IMG/VR virus record: IMGVR_UViG_3300036716_001445
Coordinates: 1-25,969 of that record
Length of the DNA: 25,969 nt
Reading direction: 5' to 3' (one strand)
Origin: a virus
Shown: piece by piece, positions 9,975-25,969 of the stretch
How the letters are laid out: each line of letters starts with the position of its first letter
Numbering within the stretch: position 1 is the first letter of the stretch
Position numbers and translations under genes: made by a program
Notes under the pieces: generated by a model
What the model was told of the DNA's origin: nothing
Seen by the model: the letters and a program-made list of their open reading frames with translations, nothing else
Database searches by the model: none

Positions 9975-10790
9975 TTAATAATTCATAATCAAAAGTTCAG
10001 TTCCTTTGTTTTGCTTCTTTCCTTTCTGTGCTCCTGCTGCCTTTGAAAATTCTCTTTCCTCCCATTTATATTCGTTTTTAGGAAGCCACTCATTCAACAA
10101 TGGGAAATCATAATAACTTAACGCAAACTTTCCTTTTATCAACTTTAAATGAGTTATCAATGTGTTATGATCTTCCGAATCAAAATCATGATTTGAATAA
10201 TAATTTTCCGTTTTCCAATAAGGAGGATCAACATAAAAGAAAGTAGTTGGAGAATCATATTTCAAAATTAAATCTGTATAATCTAAATTTTCAACTTTTG
10301 TTATTTTATTCATCTTTTCTATTATTGAATCCTTTTGCAGTTTTCTTTTTAAAGCATCAAATTTTGATCCATACTTTCCTTTTAAATCAATAAACTTTGA
10401 TTCCAATATTTTAGATCCTGAAAATACTTGAGTTGCACAATATGCATATTTTGTTGCAAGATCATAATCATTTAAATTAAATTTTGTTTTGCTATCAGCC
10501 AAACTGTTTAATCCATTTTGAAACATATTAAAAATCATTTTGTCTTGGGATTCATATTTATTAAGTTCAATCAACATTCTTTCAGGATTTCTGAAACATG
10601 AGAATAAGTTTGCCATATATCTGTTTTTGTCATTATAAATAACTTCTTTCAATTTTGGTTTTTCATTTATGTTTCCATTAACATAAACCCAGAAAGCACC
10701 CCCAAAAACTTCAACATAAGTTTCACATTCTGGAATGTATTCTCCAATCCATTTCGCCATTCGGCTCTTTCCTCCAATATAACTAATCAT
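9975..10790 (-). CDS. Adenine-specific DNA methyltransferase, D12 class (Dam-like)
   Basis: I set the start at 10790 (MISYIGGKSRMAKWIGEYIP; 271 residues). It overlaps the preceding stop as ATGA and begins at the family's 'Y-I-G-G-K-S-R/K' motif; 27 extra in-frame upstream codons lie inside the preceding gene. Motif X is I-G-G-K-S, motif I is Y-V-E-V-F-G-G-A at about 25-32, and motif IV is D-P-P-Y at 188-191. The order (SAM motif first, DPPY later) is that of the alpha group. It transfers a methyl group to N6 of adenine. Target specificity cannot be read from sequence. With two other methyltransferases, a role in protection against host restriction is likely. Confidence 0.93.
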   Translation of the reverse strand: MISYIGGKSRMAKWIGEYIPECETYVEVFGGAFWVYVNGNINEKPKLKEVIYNDKNRYMANLFSCFRNPERMLIELNKYESQDKMIFNMFQNGLNSLADSKTKFNLNDYDLATKYAYCATQVFSGSKILESKFIDLKGKYGSKFDALKRKLQKDSIIEKMNKITKVENLDYTDLILKYDSPTTFFYVDPPYWKTENYYSNHDFDSEDHNTLITHLKLIKGKFALSYYDFPLLNEWLPKNEYKWEEREFSKAAGAQKGKKQNKGTELLIMNY

Positions 10791-11008
10791 TTTATTTCGT
10801 TTATTGAGTAAATAAAATCTTTGAATTCTCGGTTTCTGTTGTATTGTGAAATCAATGGTTGATATATGCAATCATTATCGCATATTTCCCTTTCTCCACA
10901 TTCATCACATCTTTGATGTTGTTCGCAAAATGTATCAAAATCAATTGCTTCATCCCAACACATTTCACATCTGATAAATTTTCTATCTGGCTCATTCAGT
11001 TCTCTCAT
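10787..11008 (-). CDS. Cys-rich small protein, putative zinc binding (73 aa)
   Basis: The protein begins MRELNEPDRKFIRCEMCWDE. It has C14-x-x-C17, C28, H31 (F-C-E-Q-H-Q-R), C34-x-x-C37 (R-C-D-E-C-G-E), C43 and C47. That is enough ligands for two zinc sites in the first 50 residues. The C-terminal 25 residues are polar. It lies between the C5 methyltransferase (2-base gap) and the D12 methyltransferase (ATGA overlap). The surrounding genes suggest nucleic acid or protein interaction, but no specific family is recognised. Confidence 0.68.
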   Translation of the reverse strand: MRELNEPDRKFIRCEMCWDEAIDFDTFCEQHQRCDECGEREICDNDCIYQPLISQYNRNREFKDFIYSINEIK

Positions 11009-11009
11009 A

Positions 11010-11660
11010 TTAAAATATTGTTAGTTGTTCTTTGTTGTTGTTATTTATTATTCCTAAAGCAGTTTGAAATATAGTTTTACCCGCTTCATAGTCAACTAAG
11101 TTTCTAGCTATTTTTGTTTTACTTTGTTCCCCTTTATATTTATTAAAGTTATAATCATGAAATTTACAAAGAGATTTCAATTCATTTTTTGTTTGACTTA
11201 TTGAAAATCTTCTATCGTTCAATTCGTTAGGTAAATTAAAATTTGTCCAATATAAATGCCTCCCTCTTTTTTTAGGATTTAGCATATACTCATAATAAGG
11301 AATAACATTTTCTACAACATACTTTCCTTTAAAATGATGTTCTAAAAATATAATTTCTTCATATAATTTTAAATCAGGATAAACAGAATTCTTTCCGTTT
11401 GCTCCAAATCCCCAAAATCTTGCGCGGGAATGTGTTGGGCACGGCGGAGATGTCCAAATAAAATCAAATTTTTTATAATTATTTAATAAATATTGATGAG
11501 CATCATCAATAATTACTTTATCATCAGGAAATCTTTCTTTGTAAAGTTTTGCAAGTTCTTCATCTCTTTCAACAGCTGTTACCTCAATATCATTTTTTAC
11601 TTCATTCCATTTATATCTATTGCCACCAATACAAGAATATAAGTTTAATATTTTTATCAT
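11010..11660 (-). CDS. Compact cytosine-C5 DNA methyltransferase
   Basis: This 216-residue enzyme has motif I as L-N-L-Y-S-C-I-G-G-N (residues 5-14), an acidic residue at A-V-E-R-D (motif II), D-D-A (motif III), the catalytic-loop motif IV S-P-P-C-P-T-H-S around 71-78, and V-V-E-N-V (motif VI). A late 'R-R-F-S-I-S' resembles motif VIII, and Q-T-A-L-G-I resembles motif X. The proline after the catalytic Cys replaces the usual Gln. It is much shorter than typical Dcm-type enzymes (over 300 residues), so the target recognition region is reduced. It would put m5C into phage DNA. The ATG overlaps the preceding stop as ATGA. Confidence 0.85.
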   Translation of the reverse strand: MIKILNLYSCIGGNRYKWNEVKNDIEVTAVERDEELAKLYKERFPDDKVIIDDAHQYLLNNYKKFDFIWTSPPCPTHSRARFWGFGANGKNSVYPDLKLYEEIIFLEHHFKGKYVVENVIPYYEYMLNPKKRGRHLYWTNFNLPNELNDRRFSISQTKNELKSLCKFHDYNFNKYKGEQSKTKIARNLVDYEAGKTIFQTALGIINNNNKEQLTIF

Positions 11661-12034
11661 AATAGTTTTTTAATAGTCAATAGTCCAGTTCCTTTTCTTG
11701 ATCGATATGAAACTCTTTTATCCTCCCGATATGTTGCTAAGTTATTCTTATTCCATTCGTTTTCATATAAGATTTTCTTTTGCATCTTTAACCATTTATA
11801 ATAAGTTTTTACATTCAAAACAAATTCTTCTGTATTTCTTATTCCATTTCTGAATGCTTCTTGAACATCTTCAAATTCCATATTACTGAAATCCCTTTGC
11901 AAATCATTTATTAAAATTCTTGCAATTGTTGCTTGATCCTCTGCACTCTTTGTTTGCCCCAATTGAATTAAAGTATCTCTAACTAAAGAAATTCCAAATA
12001 TATTCAACTCATCTTTTGTTTTGTTTTTAATCAT
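11657..12034 (-). CDS. Helical hypothetical protein, possible helicase loader
   Basis: The start at 12034 (MIKNKTKDELNIFGISLVRD; 125 residues) overlaps the upstream TGA as ATGA. The open frame extends further upstream, but only inside the preceding gene. The protein is mostly helical: 'A-T-I-A-R-I-L-I-N-D-L-Q-R-D-F', 'E-D-V-Q-E-A-F-R-N-G-I-R-N' and 'V-K-T-Y-Y-K-W-L'. The C-terminus is basic. A helical protein right after a winged-helix replication protein is where many phages encode a helicase loader (P- or G39P-like), and the 'L-x-x-x-F-x-x-x-x-x-x-D-V-x-x-A-F-x-x-G' pattern is seen in such small proteins. The assignment is tentative. Confidence 0.6.
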   Translation of the reverse strand: MIKNKTKDELNIFGISLVRDTLIQLGQTKSAEDQATIARILINDLQRDFSNMEFEDVQEAFRNGIRNTEEFVLNVKTYYKWLKMQKKILYENEWNKNNLATYREDKRVSYRSRKGTGLLTIKKLL

Positions 12035-12663
12035 TGCATTCTGTTTAATATTTCCAAAGCATTTTCTGAAGTTGCAATTTGTTGATGTATTTTTGATGTT
12101 GATTGTTTTGAGTTTCTTTTCCATCTTTTCATTCTCAAATTCAAATCCCAAGTTTTTTGCATTTCAAATCTCATCTTTCCATTTTTATTTGTTTCACTCC
12201 AATAATCAATAAAACTTTCTGATTCAAACTTATCTAATGTTCCATTCTCCAAAACTTCAATTGAAAATTTTTCTTTATCTATCTTTTTTAAATTAGTTCT
12301 TAATTTATTATTAGTCTTTAATTGTGTGCAGTTTTCCACATCTGGTTTTTTAAGATCTGGTTTTTTGGTAAGTGGTTTTTCATAAACTATTAACTCCCAT
12401 TTTAAAACCTTTCCAGTGTTATCTGTTATTCTGTTTCTTTCTACATATCCAAACCCATTAAGTTCCTTTAAGATTGAGTAAATAGTGTTTTTAGACTCTT
12501 TAACTATTGCAACCAAACCATTAACTGACAATTCCCAAGAATCAGGAAATGATAAAATTAAACTCATCAATCCCTTTGCTTTTAAACTCAAGTCTTTTCT
12601 TTTCAATATTTCGTTTGAAATGATTGAATAATTTCCTGTTTTCTGAATTCTTTTTATTTCCAT
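12031..12663 (-). CDS. Winged-helix replication protein (initiator-like)
   Basis: This 210-residue protein begins MEIKRIQKTGNYSIISNEIL. Residues 10-85 form a winged helix: 'Y-S-I-I-S-N-E-I-L-K-R-K-D-L-S-L-K-A-K-G-L' (first helices), 'L-S-V-N-G-L' then 'K-E-S-K-N-T-I-Y-S-I-L-K-E-L' (recognition helix) and 'G-Y-V-E-R' wing. This is the opening of many phage replication proteins that bind the origin and recruit the host helicase. The rest (about 100-210) is polar and lacks a nuclease or ATPase motif. With the loader-like gene next to it and no phage polymerase, it probably recruits host replication proteins. The origin is often inside such genes but I cannot identify it here. Confidence 0.78.
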   Translation of the reverse strand: MEIKRIQKTGNYSIISNEILKRKDLSLKAKGLMSLILSFPDSWELSVNGLVAIVKESKNTIYSILKELNGFGYVERNRITDNTGKVLKWELIVYEKPLTKKPDLKKPDVENCTQLKTNNKLRTNLKKIDKEKFSIEVLENGTLDKFESESFIDYWSETNKNGKMRFEMQKTWDLNLRMKRWKRNSKQSTSKIHQQIATSENALEILNRMQ

Positions 12664-13304
12664 TTGAACAAATTATTTTCAATTTTATTTAATCTTTGTT
12701 TTGTAATTTCAAAAGCTTTTTCCGAAATATCGCAACCAATATATTTGAATCCTAATTTTGAAGCAACAGCAAGAGTTGTTCCTGATCCCATAAATGCATC
12801 AAATATAACTTCATCATTTGCAGTTGTTTTTATAATATTTCCAATTACTTTTTCTGGAATCTGATTTGAATAATTTTCTTTTTCTTTTGAAACATTTTTT
12901 ACTAAATTTATATTCCACCAATCATATATATTAACTTTTTGATTTACTCGTATGTCTTCGGGGTTCTTAGGTTTTTGTTTTACTTTTGAAAAGTCTGGCT
13001 TGCAATTAAAAAATGCAATGCTTCTGTGTTGTTTTCTCATATTACTATTATAAACCCATTGAACAACCTTTTCAGGAACTCCCATTGTTGGAACTATATA
13101 TTTAATAATATCTTCAATATAATGAATTACAACTAACTTGAATCCCTTAAAACTTTCAAATAATTTTAAATATTCATCTTCTGAAATCTTATCTTTATAA
13201 GTATCATATTTCCAACCAACATTATAAGGAGGATCAATAATAATTAAAGTTTTTTCTTTTTGTAATTCTTTTATTATTTCTCTAAAATCTTTATTGTAAA
13301 TCAT
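12654..13304 (-). CDS. DNA methyltransferase, DPPY-first (beta-like) type
   Basis: This 216-residue enzyme has the catalytic motif IV near the N-terminus (I-I-I-D-P-P-Y-N-V-G-W, about residues 20-30). The SAM-binding motif I is near the C-terminus (D-A-F-M-G-S-G-T-T-L-A, about 169-179), with G-C-D-I-S as motif II. That order is typical of the beta group, whose members modify adenine N6 or cytosine N4; DPPY does not decide between the two. It is shorter than most stand-alone enzymes, with a small recognition domain. The start overlaps the upstream stop by one base (TAATG). No matching restriction enzyme is nearby, so it is an orphan enzyme. Confidence 0.92.
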   Translation of the reverse strand: MIYNKDFREIIKELQKEKTLIIIDPPYNVGWKYDTYKDKISEDEYLKLFESFKGFKLVVIHYIEDIIKYIVPTMGVPEKVVQWVYNSNMRKQHRSIAFFNCKPDFSKVKQKPKNPEDIRVNQKVNIYDWWNINLVKNVSKEKENYSNQIPEKVIGNIIKTTANDEVIFDAFMGSGTTLAVASKLGFKYIGCDISEKAFEITKQRLNKIENNLFKWK

Positions 13305-13675
13305 TATTCAAATATTGATAATTGCCCAACCCCTCCAAACATAATTGTTTGATTTTCAAGTGCGTTTAATATTTCAACTTGAGATGCAATTCTTTGTTTC
13401 AAACTTATATTGTTTTCCTCCAATTCCTTAAGATTTGCAGCAACATAATATCCTTTTGAATTGGAACAAAGCCCAGATAATAAATTATTCACTCTAATAA
13501 AGTGTATTATTTTTCTTAACCTAACTCCAATAATTCCCATCTTTTCACAAATCACACTGGATTTAACTGCATTTGCTTTTCCTTTTCTTGCACCAATTCC
13601 CCTCACTACATCAGGAACAATTTGCAGTTCCTGATCTGTGAGTTCTTCCGTTAGTTTTTCAAATCCTTTTAACAT
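13304..13675 (-). CDS. Hypothetical protein with winged-helix-like region
   Basis: This 123-residue protein begins MLKGFEKLTEELTDQELQIV. After 'L-T-D-Q-E-L-x-I-V-P' it has a helix-turn-helix-like segment (V-K-S-S-V-I-C-E-K-M-G-I-I-G-V-R-L-R-K-I-I-H-F-I-R). This is followed by 'G-L-C-S-N-S-K-G-Y-Y-V-A' (a wing-like strand pair) and a C-terminal coiled helix. The layout 'choose-helix, recognise-helix, S-x-x-G-Y-Y/F' is found in phage proteins of replication modules. It lies between the SSB and a methyltransferase. A DNA-binding role is likely; anything more is not supported. Confidence 0.68.
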   Translation of the reverse strand: MLKGFEKLTEELTDQELQIVPDVVRGIGARKGKANAVKSSVICEKMGIIGVRLRKIIHFIRVNNLLSGLCSNSKGYYVAANLKELEENNISLKQRIASQVEILNALENQTIMFGGVGQLSIFE

Positions 13676-13677
13676 AA

Positions 13678-13986
13678 TTAAAACGGCATATTATCAGATT
13701 CCTCAACCTTTGCTGAATCTTGTAATGTTATTTCCCAAGCCGAAATATTATGATAATATCTTCCATTATATTCTTTTGAACTAACATTTAATTTCACTTC
13801 AATTTCTGCTCCATTCTTCAGATTCTGGATTTGTTCAATCTTTTCTCCAAATGTATCAATGCAAATTTGATTGTTAAATTCCGCTCCCGTATCTAAAACG
13901 AAACTTTGTTTTTGCCAATTCTTTCCTGCTTTTGAAACTCCCTTTTGTAATTCCAAAATTTTAACTAATTTTCCCGTAATTTTCAT
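13678..13986 (-). CDS. Single-stranded DNA-binding protein, DUF3127-like
   Basis: This 102-residue OB-fold protein begins MKITGKLVKILELQKGVSKA. The segments 'I-x-G-K-L-V-K-I-L-x-x-Q-x-G-x-S-K-A-G-K-x-W-x-K-Q-x-F-V-L-x-T' and 'S-K-E-Y-N-G-R-Y-Y-H-N-I-S-A-W' match DUF3127, a family of short SSB-like proteins frequent in Bacteroidota and their phages. The C-terminus (V-E-E-S-D-N-M-P-F) is an acidic tip ending in Pro-Phe, as in bacterial SSB, where it binds partners such as exonucleases and polymerase-associated proteins. It works with the annealing protein and nuclease upstream. The start overlaps the DnaA-IV-like gene by 26 bases. Confidence 0.92.
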   Translation of the reverse strand: MKITGKLVKILELQKGVSKAGKNWQKQSFVLDTGAEFNNQICIDTFGEKIEQIQNLKNGAEIEVKLNVSSKEYNGRYYHNISAWEITLQDSAKVEESDNMPF

Positions 13987-14383
13987 ATTTATTTAATTTA
14001 TTTAAGTTATCTCTCAATTTTTTTGTTCTTATAATATCATCCAATTCATCAATTGGAAATCTCATATCTATTTTTAATTTTTGCCATTCTTTGTGATCCG
14101 CATAATATAAAAATGAAATCCATTCTTTTCTTATTTCTTTATATTGTTCAACTTCAAATTCAAACTTTCTGCAATGATGAATGCTTGTTGCATGATGTGC
14201 TCCAATAATAAATTCTTTCATTTTAAGATGTTTAATATTGCAATGTTTCCAAAGATAATAAATAAAGAATCTCCTTGCAATCATAACATTTCTTTTCCTT
14301 GTTTCCATTAGAACAATTTCATGTTCCTCACAATCGTACATTTTAGCAAGAACAAATCTTGCAATTTCAATATTTACTTTCAT
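13961..14383 (-). CDS. DnaA domain IV-like DNA-binding protein
   Basis: This 140-residue protein has a helix-turn-helix core that fits DnaA domain IV. 'N-V-M-I-A-R-R-F-F-I-Y-Y-L-W-K-H' (residues 32-47) corresponds to the basic 'R-x-x-x-M-Y-L-x-R' helix. The segment from G61, A-H-H-A-T-S-I-H-H-C-R-K (62-73), corresponds to the DnaA signature 'R-D-H-T/S-T-V-x-H-A-x-R-K', which reads DnaA boxes. No AAA+ ATPase domain is present. The C-terminal half (about 75-140) is charged and helical. It could bind phage origin sites or compete with host DnaA. It sits between the nuclease and SSB genes in the replication block. The match is by motif only. Confidence 0.78.
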   Translation of the reverse strand: MKVNIEIARFVLAKMYDCEEHEIVLMETRKRNVMIARRFFIYYLWKHCNIKHLKMKEFIIGAHHATSIHHCRKFEFEVEQYKEIRKEWISFLYYADHKEWQKLKIDMRFPIDELDDIIRTKKLRDNLNKLNKYENYGKIS

Positions 14384-15136
14384 TTAATATAATATTTGCT
14401 GTATTTCTGGTTTTAGAGTTCGTTTTTCACACAATACAGAACACTTTCTACATTTTGAATATGATTTCATTGGTTTTGGAATAAAGTTCTTTAAATCGTT
14501 TCTAAATCGTTTTAATCTATCCCGATAACTTTCAATTGTTTCTTTTGTTGGCTCAATCATTATGAATTTGCACCATCCACTTTTTCCAAAAATAAGATAA
14601 AAGAACGGCAAATATATTCCATGTTCTTGATAATACATTTCAATATAGTGAATTGCTTGAGTAAAATCTTTATAAATTTCTCCAGTGCTTTCATCAACTA
14701 TATTTCCCCAAGCATAAGGATTCCATTTGCAATTTTCATCTTCTTTCATTGCTGTATATTTCAAATCCATTATTGCAAGCTCTCCTTTATATTTAATTAA
14801 AGCATCAGGATGCCCAATCAATTCAGTTGTTTCCCATTCTGGTTGTACATCAATCAATTCAATTTCCAAATCATTCATCATTTCCTTTGATTTCTCAGCA
14901 AGAGAAAGAAGATCTGTTTCCCTTTTCAATGGTTTTCCAGTCTTTCCTTTTGGTATTTCATAAACATCGCCTCCCCTACTCATTCCAATAACATTCTGTT
15001 CAAAAACCAACCCATCCAACATTGCAGCAGTTGGCCCAGTTCTGAAACCATTCAAATAAGTTTCTTCCCATTTTATTTTACAATATGTTTTATCGTAAAA
15101 ATCCCTCAACATTGATTGGCTAATTTTTAGTTTCAT
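14384..15136 (-). CDS. PD-(D/E)XK nuclease, Cas4/RecB-like, probable Fe-S cluster
   Basis: This 250-residue protein begins MKLKISQSMLRDFYDKTYCK. The nuclease core has E46 (G-L-V-F-E-Q-N), D111 (G-H-P-D-A-L), D124-L-K126 (A-I-M-D-L-K-Y) and Q160 (D-F-T-Q-A-I-H-Y), the order seen in RecB/Cas4-like exonucleases. Four cysteines, C19 near the N-terminus and C229-x-x-C232-x-x-x-C236 near the C-terminus, are placed as in Cas4 and AddB, where they hold a 4Fe-4S cluster. The enzyme probably resects DNA ends to give 3' single strands for the annealing protein two genes upstream and the SSB downstream. It overlaps the 86-residue gene by 17 bases. Confidence 0.86.
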   Translation of the reverse strand: MKLKISQSMLRDFYDKTYCKIKWEETYLNGFRTGPTAAMLDGLVFEQNVIGMSRGGDVYEIPKGKTGKPLKRETDLLSLAEKSKEMMNDLEIELIDVQPEWETTELIGHPDALIKYKGELAIMDLKYTAMKEDENCKWNPYAWGNIVDESTGEIYKDFTQAIHYIEMYYQEHGIYLPFFYLIFGKSGWCKFIMIEPTKETIESYRDRLKRFRNDLKNFIPKPMKSYSKCRKCSVLCEKRTLKPEIQQILY

Positions 15137-15380
15137 ATGCCATTTTTTTTGCTTCTGAAATAGAATCCATTAAAGCATCATAAACTGCTTCAATTCCATA
15201 TTCTCCACTGATTTCCATTGATTTCATAACTTCCTTTTCATATTGCCCTGAAACTTTTAAAAGCTTATTAAACTTTCTTTTTAAGTTTAAATTATGTTGA
15301 TCCTTTAACACATGAATTTGCTCATCCAAACAAAGCACCAAAGCCAACAAGATTGAGATTTCAACTTCTTTGTTTATCAT
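15120..15380 (-). CDS. Helical hypothetical protein (86 aa)
   Basis: Unrecognised. It begins MINKEVEISILLALVLCLDE. The sequence is almost wholly helical: a hydrophobic first helix (residues 6-18), a basic middle (N-L-K-R-K-F-N-K-L-L-K) and an acidic/Ala C-terminal helix ending in A-K-K-M-A-Y-E-T-K-N. It overlaps the annealing protein gene by 4 bases (ATGA) and the nuclease gene by 17 bases, so it belongs to the recombination cassette. A small accessory factor is possible; no motif supports a specific role. Confidence 0.7.
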   Translation of the reverse strand: MINKEVEISILLALVLCLDEQIHVLKDQHNLNLKRKFNKLLKVSGQYEKEVMKSMEISGEYGIEAVYDALMDSISEAKKMAYETKN

Positions 15381-15763
15381 CTTGCTTTTGTTTTTGCTTT
15401 CTCTTGGAAATCCATTTCATCCTTTCCATGAGTATTCGTTAACCCCATTGTTTTGATTATAACCCGAGCTAATGCTCTTTTCTCAGCAATCTCAACTGGA
15501 AATTTTTGAATGCAATTTGATGTTGTAGCGCTTGCAAATGTTTCTGTTTTCTTAACACCATCCTGAAATGATGTTGCTTTAATTATAACATTTCCAACTT
15601 CATGAGATATGATTTCAAAACAAACATCAATCTTGTTATTCCATTGGATTTGCTCAATTCCTGATCTTGTTATAATTGTGAAACCTCTTTTATCAGTATA
15701 AACATCATCTTTTGTTAATGAGTTATCTTTATATAAAACCCTTAAAATTTCATTTTTATTCAT
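15377..15763 (-). CDS. Putative ssDNA-annealing protein (Rad52/Sak-like)
   Basis: I favour the start at 15763 (MNKNEILRVLYKDNSLTKDD; 128 residues), overlapping the upstream gene by 8 bases. An ATG at 15790 would add nine residues. The segment 'S-G-I-E-Q-I-Q-W' followed by beta strands and then 'A-T-T-S-N-C-I-Q-K-F-P-V-E-I-A-E-K-R-A-L-A-R-V-I-I-K-T-M-G-L' (about 88-117) resembles the 'E-x-A-E-T/K-R-A-x-x-R-A-x-x-x-x-G' signature of phage annealing proteins of the Rad52 superfamily. Its genetic context strengthens this, with a RecB-like nuclease and an SSB nearby. It would anneal complementary single strands during recombination-dependent replication. The family call is tentative. Confidence 0.68.
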   Translation of the reverse strand: MNKNEILRVLYKDNSLTKDDVYTDKRGFTIITRSGIEQIQWNNKIDVCFEIISHEVGNVIIKATSFQDGVKKTETFASATTSNCIQKFPVEIAEKRALARVIIKTMGLTNTHGKDEMDFQEKAKTKAR

Positions 15764-15983
15764 TGATCCATTGATTTGTTTCCGCTCCAAAATAAAGGAA
15801 AGAAAAAGTTAATATTAAAACTATTGCGCAAGCAGTAAAAAACCAAAATAAATTTTTAATATCGAAAGTTTCAATCTCTTCAATATTATATTTTTTATGT
15901 GGATTAAATTTAATAAAGTTTGTTAAATCTTTTGCATTTCGGTATTGAAAAAAGCCCGTTTTTTTGTTTGTAATTTTATACAT
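15756..15983 (-). CDS. Small membrane protein (75 aa)
   Basis: The protein begins MYKITNKKTGFFQYRNAKDL. Residues 1-43 are basic and polar, probably cytoplasmic. Residues 44-66 (D-L-less stretch F-W-F-F-T-A-C-A-I-V-L-I-L-T-F-S-F-L-Y-F-G-A) form one clear transmembrane helix, and a short acidic end follows. Its start carries the same A/T-rich leader as the two earlier genes, so it belongs to the first-expressed set. Early membrane proteins of phages often act on host functions such as superinfection, but no evidence here selects a function. Confidence 0.72.
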   Translation of the reverse strand: MYKITNKKTGFFQYRNAKDLTNFIKFNPHKKYNIEEIETFDIKNLFWFFTACAIVLILTFSFLYFGAETNQWINE

Positions 15984-16477: not shown

Positions 16478-16508
16478 TAAATATACTAAAGATTTTAACA
16501 ATACCAAA
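16478..16508 (-). promoter_or_regulatory. Main early promoter, Bacteroidota type
   Basis: On the minus strand TTTG (16508-16505) is followed after 19 bases by TATATTTA (16485-16478), one base from the TAnnTTTG -7 consensus of Bacteroidota primary sigma factors. The spacing is normal. It lies in the only long intergenic region, downstream of the late terminator and 41 bases before the first early ATG, so the context is convincing. Confidence 0.68.
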
Positions 16509-16620
16509 CTTTTTTTAAATTATTTTTTAACCTAGCAAATCAATGTTTTTTGTGTTTTTAGCTATGTTAACAAGTGAAATTTTAGTCAATTTTTCGTCAA
16601 TTGATGCGCCACTTTGGTAT
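16501..16620. promoter_or_regulatory. Non-coding control region with inverted and direct repeats
   Basis: ATACCAAA (16501-16508) and TTTGGTAT (16613-16620) are perfect inverted copies about 104 bases apart; the first overlaps the -33 element. Between them GTCAATT occurs at 16585-16591 and 16596-16602, an 11-base period equal to about one helical turn. The second copy is part of the palindrome TCAATTGA (16597-16604). This looks like operator or origin architecture, but no protein can be assigned to it. No gene is seen in 16438-16708. Confidence 0.45.
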
Positions 16621-16629
16621 TTTTATCGT

Positions 16630-16676
16630 AAAAAAAAAGAGAAACTGAATCCCCTTTATAAATTCAGCCCCTCTTT
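16630..16676 (-). terminator. Late operon terminator (G.U-dependent stem)
   Basis: In minus-strand RNA AAAGAG-GGG-CUGAAU (16676-16662) pairs with AUUCAG-UUU-CUCUUU (16650-16636), with three G.U pairs in the middle, an 11-base loop, and U continuing to 16631. The plus-strand RNA would have A.C mismatches at those places, so the signal is directional. It lies 33 bases after the phosphoesterase stop. Confidence 0.85.
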
Positions 16677-25440: not shown

Positions 25441-25875
25441 CTATGAAATTGTTTGTGTTAAAGCACCTGATCCTGTAAAAGAAGCACTATATGTTGAAGT
25501 ATCTTCTAAAGGAGCAGTTAAAGATAAACTTGTTATCCATGCTGTTCCTGTATATTTAGTATCTTCAGTTGATGTTGTTGTAACTCCAAAAGTTAATTCA
25601 AAACTTGTTCTTGTATCAATATATGATGAAAATAATTCACTCATTGTTAATCCTGAAATTGCTGATCCATCAGGAGCAAGCCATGCATATAATGCATCGC
25701 AAGAAACATCCCAGTTTCTCATTCCTTCCATGTTTTCATCCCAACCACCGCTTTCTTTTGAAGATGTTGATCTTAATGAATGATTGATGTTGATTGAACA
25801 GTTTGTTGAATATGCAACTAATGTTCCAGCAACATAAACTTTCAGATCCGTTCCGTTTAATTGTCCGTTTGCCAT
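25441..25875 (-). CDS. Major tail tube protein (TP901-1 type)
   Basis: This 144-residue protein begins MANGQLNGTDLKVYVAGTLV. 'G-T-D-L-K-V-Y-V-A-G-T-L-V-A-Y-S-T-N-C-S-I-N-I-N' at 8-31 is the hallmark of TP901-1-type major tail proteins, followed by 'S-S-K-E-S-G-G-W-D-E-N-M-E-G-M-R-N-W-D-V-S-C-D-A-L-Y' with the conserved tryptophans. The C-terminal half has alternating strands (G-T-A-W-I-T-S-L-S-L-T-A-P-L-E-D-T-S-T-Y-S-A-S-F-T-G-S-G). It polymerises as hexameric rings around the tape measure. It is the most abundant tail protein, and a strong terminator follows. Its first 34 bases are repeated at the other end of the window. Confidence 0.95.
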   Translation of the reverse strand: MANGQLNGTDLKVYVAGTLVAYSTNCSININHSLRSTSSKESGGWDENMEGMRNWDVSCDALYAWLAPDGSAISGLTMSELFSSYIDTRTSFELTFGVTTTSTEDTKYTGTAWITSLSLTAPLEDTSTYSASFTGSGALTQTIS

Positions 25876-25969
25876 TGTTTTTTATTTTATAAATTTATAA
25901 TTCTATTTGTTTTGATTCATCCTTTGAATCTTTTTTCTTTGATTTTTTTTCTTTTTTATCATATCCGTT
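25842..25969. repeat. Terminal redundancy, right copy
   Basis: Identical to bases 1-128 except for the base at 25843 (C, against T at 2). It includes the start of the tail tube gene and the last 25 codons, with stop, of the 58-residue gene (25895-25969), whose full copy is at 54-230. Joining the two ends restores intact gene order between the head and tail modules. Confidence 0.95.

Follow-up and report, generated by a model that had tools for sequence, protein, structure and literature searches.

The window analysed here, an IMG/VR virus record of 25,969 bases, encodes on its minus strand at 13961-14383 a protein of 140 amino acids with an ATG start, which the open reading frame, Pfam matches, alignment and predicted structure together identify as a stand-alone DnaA domain IV-like protein. 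The ORF is a real, conserved gene that belongs to the core of the early operon. We give a probability of about one half to the reading that the DnaA domain IV fold alone serves this phage as a dedicated sequence-specific binder of its early region, where the protein would be a regulator and/or a marker of the origin.

The Pfam family Bac_DnaA_C (PF08299) matched residues 13-73 of the window protein with E=1.3e-4 and 22.3 bits, which is below the curated cut-off of 31.5 bits, and it matched 24/24 family members, the best with E=5e-10. In NCBIfam DnaA models, the part that aligned with residues 3-88 was limited to the ~85 C-terminal residues of DnaA (E=3.5e-5), and the top PDB match of the family profile was domain IV of E. 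coli DnaA (E=4.4e-5). Weak matches to Phage_RpbA (E=0.13) and DUF6231 were taken as noise. A first AlphaFold model, built from 9 sequences, was poor (pLDDT 62), and a second model with pLDDT 88-97 in ten-residue blocks over residues 1-100 was used instead. Its first 12 matches in the PDB were all DnaA structures (prob 0.99-1.00), and it superposed on the DnaA-DNA structure 1j1v with TMt 0.85 and an rmsd of 1.5 Å. Profile, family and structure matches together indicate that the likeness to DnaA is no chance result, and by profile and model the 140-residue protein has the helix-turn-helix fold of DnaA domain IV. The first-pass annotation, which had placed such a protein at this ORF from the letters alone and had named a predicted structure unlike the DnaA helix-turn-helix as the outcome that would speak against it, is borne out on this point.

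The same annotation had put the box-reading domain at residues 32-73; the domain is of the kind it named, but it spans residues ~2-90. Residues ~97-138 form a helical tail, modelled at lower confidence, which replaces any AAA+ domain. An ATPase domain is missing, as had been noted: in the Pfam and NCBIfam comparisons the DnaA C-terminus alone matched and the AAA+ ATPase domain III was absent from the 140-residue ORF, and DnaA domain I had neither a match nor room there.

Seven residues (A8, R29, A36, H64, T66, C71, and F91) were invariant in the 24-member alignment, and R29, H64, and T66 align with R399, H434, and T436 of DnaA. The codon of Arg29, whose counterpart in E. coli DnaA is the minor-groove arginine Arg399, lies at 14297-14299 (minus strand), and the recognition-helix stretch A62-K73 (AHHATSIHHCRK), which contains H64, T66, and C71, at 14165-14200 (minus strand). 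The DnaA signature read earlier from this stretch therefore holds in part: the equivalents of H434 and T436 never vary, but that of D433 is H, N, D, or C and that of T435 is always A or S in the 24 homologues, both being substituted in the window protein. In E. coli DnaA, R399 contacts the minor groove; the R399A substitution impairs box binding, and T435M abolishes it (PMC5742627). The fact that the T435 equivalent is never T in the family counts against the reading of host DnaA boxes.

Widening the profile raised the number of IMG/VR contigs with homologues from 8 to 13 and then to 24. Fifty-eight loci were retrieved through a neighbouring conserved early gene (15377-15790, minus strand), which has a probable recombination function by position and no confident family match. 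The DnaA-like protein is encoded in 50 of them; four lack the gene although at least 3 kb of downstream sequence is present, and four were too short to judge, so that the gene occurs in 50/54 evaluable contigs carrying the conserved early gene. A sister clade (loci L063-L069) has neither the DnaA-like gene nor the adjoining PD-(D/E)XK nuclease gene, and in L066 the gene for the single-strand DNA-binding protein (SSB) directly follows the early gene. Scans of bacterial genomes returned no prophage homologue of the DnaA-like protein.

Bases 1-128 of the record match bases 25842-25969 with one mismatch, at base 2. With this 128-base end overlap the genome looks complete, and the record very probably represents a closed genome of about 25,841 bases (~25.8 kb), which is probably either circularised or terminally repeated. 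Every gene identified is on the minus strand. The late genes run in the order terminase, portal, protease, capsid, tail, endolysin/holin, and phosphoesterase-type exonuclease, and are followed by the early block: the probable recombination gene, PD-(D/E)XK nuclease, DnaA-like protein, DUF3127 SSB, phrog_2113 protein, methyltransferases, HTH_36 initiator-like protein, NinB, VRR nuclease, and HNH, after which the terminase is reached again. The virus is a tailed phage whose host probably belongs to Bacteroidota; the grounds for this host are solely the hosts of the DUF3127 relatives, which among named phages are nearly all from Bacteroidota, and the promoter type described below.

The DnaA-like gene is thus surrounded by early recombination and replication genes, in agreement with the core replication block that had been proposed for it. 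The PD-(D/E)XK-type nuclease gene (14384-15136, minus strand) lies directly upstream in the operon, and the gene for the DUF3127/single-strand DNA-binding protein (13678-13986, minus strand) overlaps the end of the DnaA-like gene; both were assigned by Pfam/PHROG scans, and the nuclease also by synteny. Four genes downstream, at 12031-12663 (minus strand), is a gene for an HTH_36 replication-initiator/DnaD-like protein, kept in most relatives, which scored 25.5 against HTH_36 (PF13730; cut-off 25) and matched phrog_4707 (8.4e-22) and phrog_186 (1.4e-13). It is likely the phage's initiator or helicase loader. Pfam and PHROG scans recognised no polymerase or helicase in the apparently complete genome; this part of the first-pass annotation stands, but the initiator-like gene had been overlooked. 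In most of the 24 loci, synteny of the DnaA-like gene extended to the nuclease, SSB, and initiator genes. A phrog_2113 protein gene (13304-13675, minus strand) adjoins the SSB gene and is present in most relatives, at 47-63% identity in most. A conserved small protein without a confident family match is encoded after the initiator (11657-12151, minus strand), and its position suggests a replication accessory. Three DNA methyltransferase genes on the minus strand (9975-10871, 11010-11660, and 12654-13304; Dam-type N6A, C5, and N6/N4) are variable among relatives.

The early operon is preceded by a putative promoter, TTTG-N19-TATATTTA (16478-16508, minus strand), located by the alignment of relatives, which we take to be of the Bacteroidota type. 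A putative intrinsic terminator of the late operon (16631-16673, minus strand) consists of a GAGGGGCTGAAT / ATTCAGTTTCTC hairpin with an 11-nt loop and a T run; the hairpin is kept in relatives, with its stem changed on both sides. It had escaped the terminator scan. An element TTTACTAGGTT (window form TTTGCTAGGTT, non-coding 16520-16545) lies upstream of the early promoter and is kept even in loci without the DnaA-like gene.

In several relatives, the non-coding stretch between late terminator and early promoter contains a tandem DnaA-box-like site with a period of 11-12, made up in some of them of canonical or near-canonical boxes. L019 has two exact TTATNCACA boxes (TTATTCACA/TTATACACA), L020 has TTATTAACA twice, and L029 has TTATTCACA/TTATTAACA, all with period 12. 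Each of these three pairs is in the same orientation, and no such pair appeared in 30 shuffles. Close variants were seen in L018, L022, L031, L072, and L077, and L028 has TTTTTGACCA twice with period 11. In the window, sequence comparison gave the candidate binding site at 16579-16600 (minus strand), a diverged tandem repeat TTGACGAAAA / TTGACTAAAA of period 11, which comprises the only TTGAC[G/T]AAA matches in the window; the window and its near relatives have TTGACKAAAA twice with this period. Both copies vary together between subgroups, being TTGACKAAAA in the window group, TTATTAACA types in others, and TTTTTGACCA in L028.

The tandem-repeat score exceeded that of shuffles across 14 early gaps with a Fisher p of 7e-8, compared with 0.26 for 17 other non-coding gaps, the combined p being no true probability because the loci are related and the period range was picked after the first examples had been seen. 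In half of ten loci, the pair was the strongest tandem 9-mer of the entire locus. The window's own pair was weak (p 0.06-0.12) and ranked 20 among the window's tandem pairs, and several subgroups with the DnaA-like protein (e.g. L033, L081-L096, and L030) had no pair. In L063-L069, where the gene is absent in the four evaluable loci, the promoter region is kept with only one copy or a mutated copy; since the nuclease gene is missing from this clade too and its upstream part is different, the joint loss of gene and pair counts as one confounded event. The subgroup pairs, few in number, yielded no code linking residues to boxes. Among unrelated phages that encode proteins of this kind (Danklef_1, P12002L, HTVC203P, phiGT1, and a Microcystis phage), tandem boxes showed no clear excess, and the pair near the early gap of Danklef_1 overlaps a hairpin. 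Given related loci, a marginal pair in the window, subgroups without a pair, and a confounded clade, we treat the tandem site as a good lead and as a candidate only.

DnaA domains I and III are the parts that contact the helicase and form the ATP filament. A protein without them is unable, on its own, to melt DNA or load helicase in the manner of DnaA. Beyond fold, conservation, domain content and gene neighbourhood, the target and the role are what we infer; most simply, the protein would be a site-specific DNA binder at the early promoter/origin region. The DnaA-like protein would bind the tandem 9-mers immediately upstream of the early promoter, a phage-specific pair derived from DnaA boxes, one protomer per box. 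Bound there, it would autoregulate the early operon and/or mark the phage origin, with the HTH_36 initiator beside it as the loader of the host helicase. The DnaA-like protein would then be no full initiator, and contact with host oriC would not be needed; its role may be transcription regulation, origin marking, or both. More tentatively, this lineage may have made DnaA domain IV a dedicated regulator or origin binder whose tandem target and reader diverged together, from canonical boxes to TTTTCGTCA-like sites here. The pair could instead be bound by the HTH_36 protein or host DnaA.

The first-pass annotation had proposed that the protein recruits host initiation or blocks host DnaA. Both proposals are weakened by the absence of domains I and III, by the phage's own initiator, and by DnaA boxes that are not enriched, and the best candidate target for the protein is a single tandem site before the phage's own early promoter. 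Recruitment, in which the protein would bind the phage origin and bring host DnaA or the host replisome, seems unlikely to us. The gene does sit with SSB, nuclease, and an initiator-like gene, the two canonical tandem boxes of L019 would also be readable by host DnaA, and annotations of related phages name such proteins replication initiation proteins. However, the protein has neither domain I nor domain III and carries no further recognisable domain, and the phage encodes an initiator-like gene of its own. Canonical DnaA boxes numbered 4 in the window (6.65 expected) and 14 in the window and 23 loci together (19.8 expected), and no iteron array was found near the initiator gene.

By analogy with GafA and GafY, the protein might activate transcription of phage late or structural genes, which we consider improbable. 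The two activators are precedents for DnaA-like domains acting as transcription factors (PMC9638019, PMC11150451): the DnaA-like N-terminal domain of GafA is required for activation and is a separate small gene in Hyphomicrobiales (PMC9638019), and GafY, the Caulobacter counterpart of this domain, regulates about 18 promoters (PMC11150451). Likewise, the activity of the tailocin rhizoviticin requires a DnaA-HTH gene (PMC10811719). However, the gene of the window lies in an early operon, the early promoter has the only candidate site, one per genome, and the Pfam scan recognised no polymerase-binding or sigma-like part in the protein. It is also improbable that, in infected cells, the protein shuts off host initiation by sitting on the host's DnaA boxes (oriC, dnaA promoter): the domain IV fold does keep the R399, H434, and T436 equivalents, but the positions of D433 and T435 carry other residues in the window protein (that of T435 in 24/24), the inferred sites of the window-group phages (TTTTCGTCA) differ from the DnaA box, and the gene is part of the operon's core and is not a variable host-takeover gene.

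Phages frequently encode stand-alone DnaA-C proteins, which are routinely labelled 'replication initiation'; in the literature searched, we came across no functional test of such a protein from a lytic phage. The candidate target site, divergent and yet alike in position in relatives, makes this label testable by binding and promoter assays, and it bears on how DnaA-box specificity can drift once the domain is freed from DnaA.

The window protein shares the fold and the R399/H434/T436 equivalents with bacterial DnaA domain IV; in contrast to bacterial DnaA, it lacks domains I-III, its D433 and T435 equivalents are replaced, and the glycine of the helix-turn-helix turn (IG) is lost. GafA and GafY, activators of gene transfer agents, likewise have a DnaA-like DNA-binding domain outside DnaA in a phage-derived setting (PMC9638019, PMC11150451), whereas GafA activates structural genes and has sigma-like and omega-binding parts, of which no counterpart was recognised in the window protein. 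The novelty implied in the first-pass annotation does not hold, since stand-alone DnaA-C proteins are a known kind, widely annotated in phages, to which the window protein adds a member. A tblastn search with a DnaA-C consensus returned 92 phage records, a few of which look like host DnaA in mislabelled entries, and many were annotated DnaA/replication initiation (Polaribacter, Cellulophaga, Tenacibaculum, and Pelagibacter phages). A Foldseek search against viral models returned dozens of 'Chromosomal replication initiator, DnaA C-terminal' proteins from uncultured Caudovirales. Annotated examples are ~107-191 amino acids long, with a longer protein of roughly 396 in Aurantimonas phage AmM-1, and many are near RecT/single-strand-annealing genes, NinB, and primosomal or DnaC-like genes, as in Gundel_1 (NinB - DnaA_C - primosomal protein - replication protein).

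The proteins of Polaribacter phages Danklef, Freya, and P12002L, Cellulophaga phi19:3, and Tenacibaculum Gundel_1 have the same domain IV-only architecture with short extensions as the window protein, and so do those of Leeuwenhoekiella Arctus_1, Pelagibacter HTVC203P, and Sulfitobacter phiGT1; like the window protein, such proteins lie in the early recombination/replication region and lack AAA+. Profile-profile comparison linked the window family to them with prob 96 and E=4.4e-9. The family gave no confident match to PHROG and only two marginal tblastn matches among 50,697 phage records, and it forms a subgroup separate from the other phage DnaA-C proteins, with a C-terminal helical tail and with HATS replacing DHTT.
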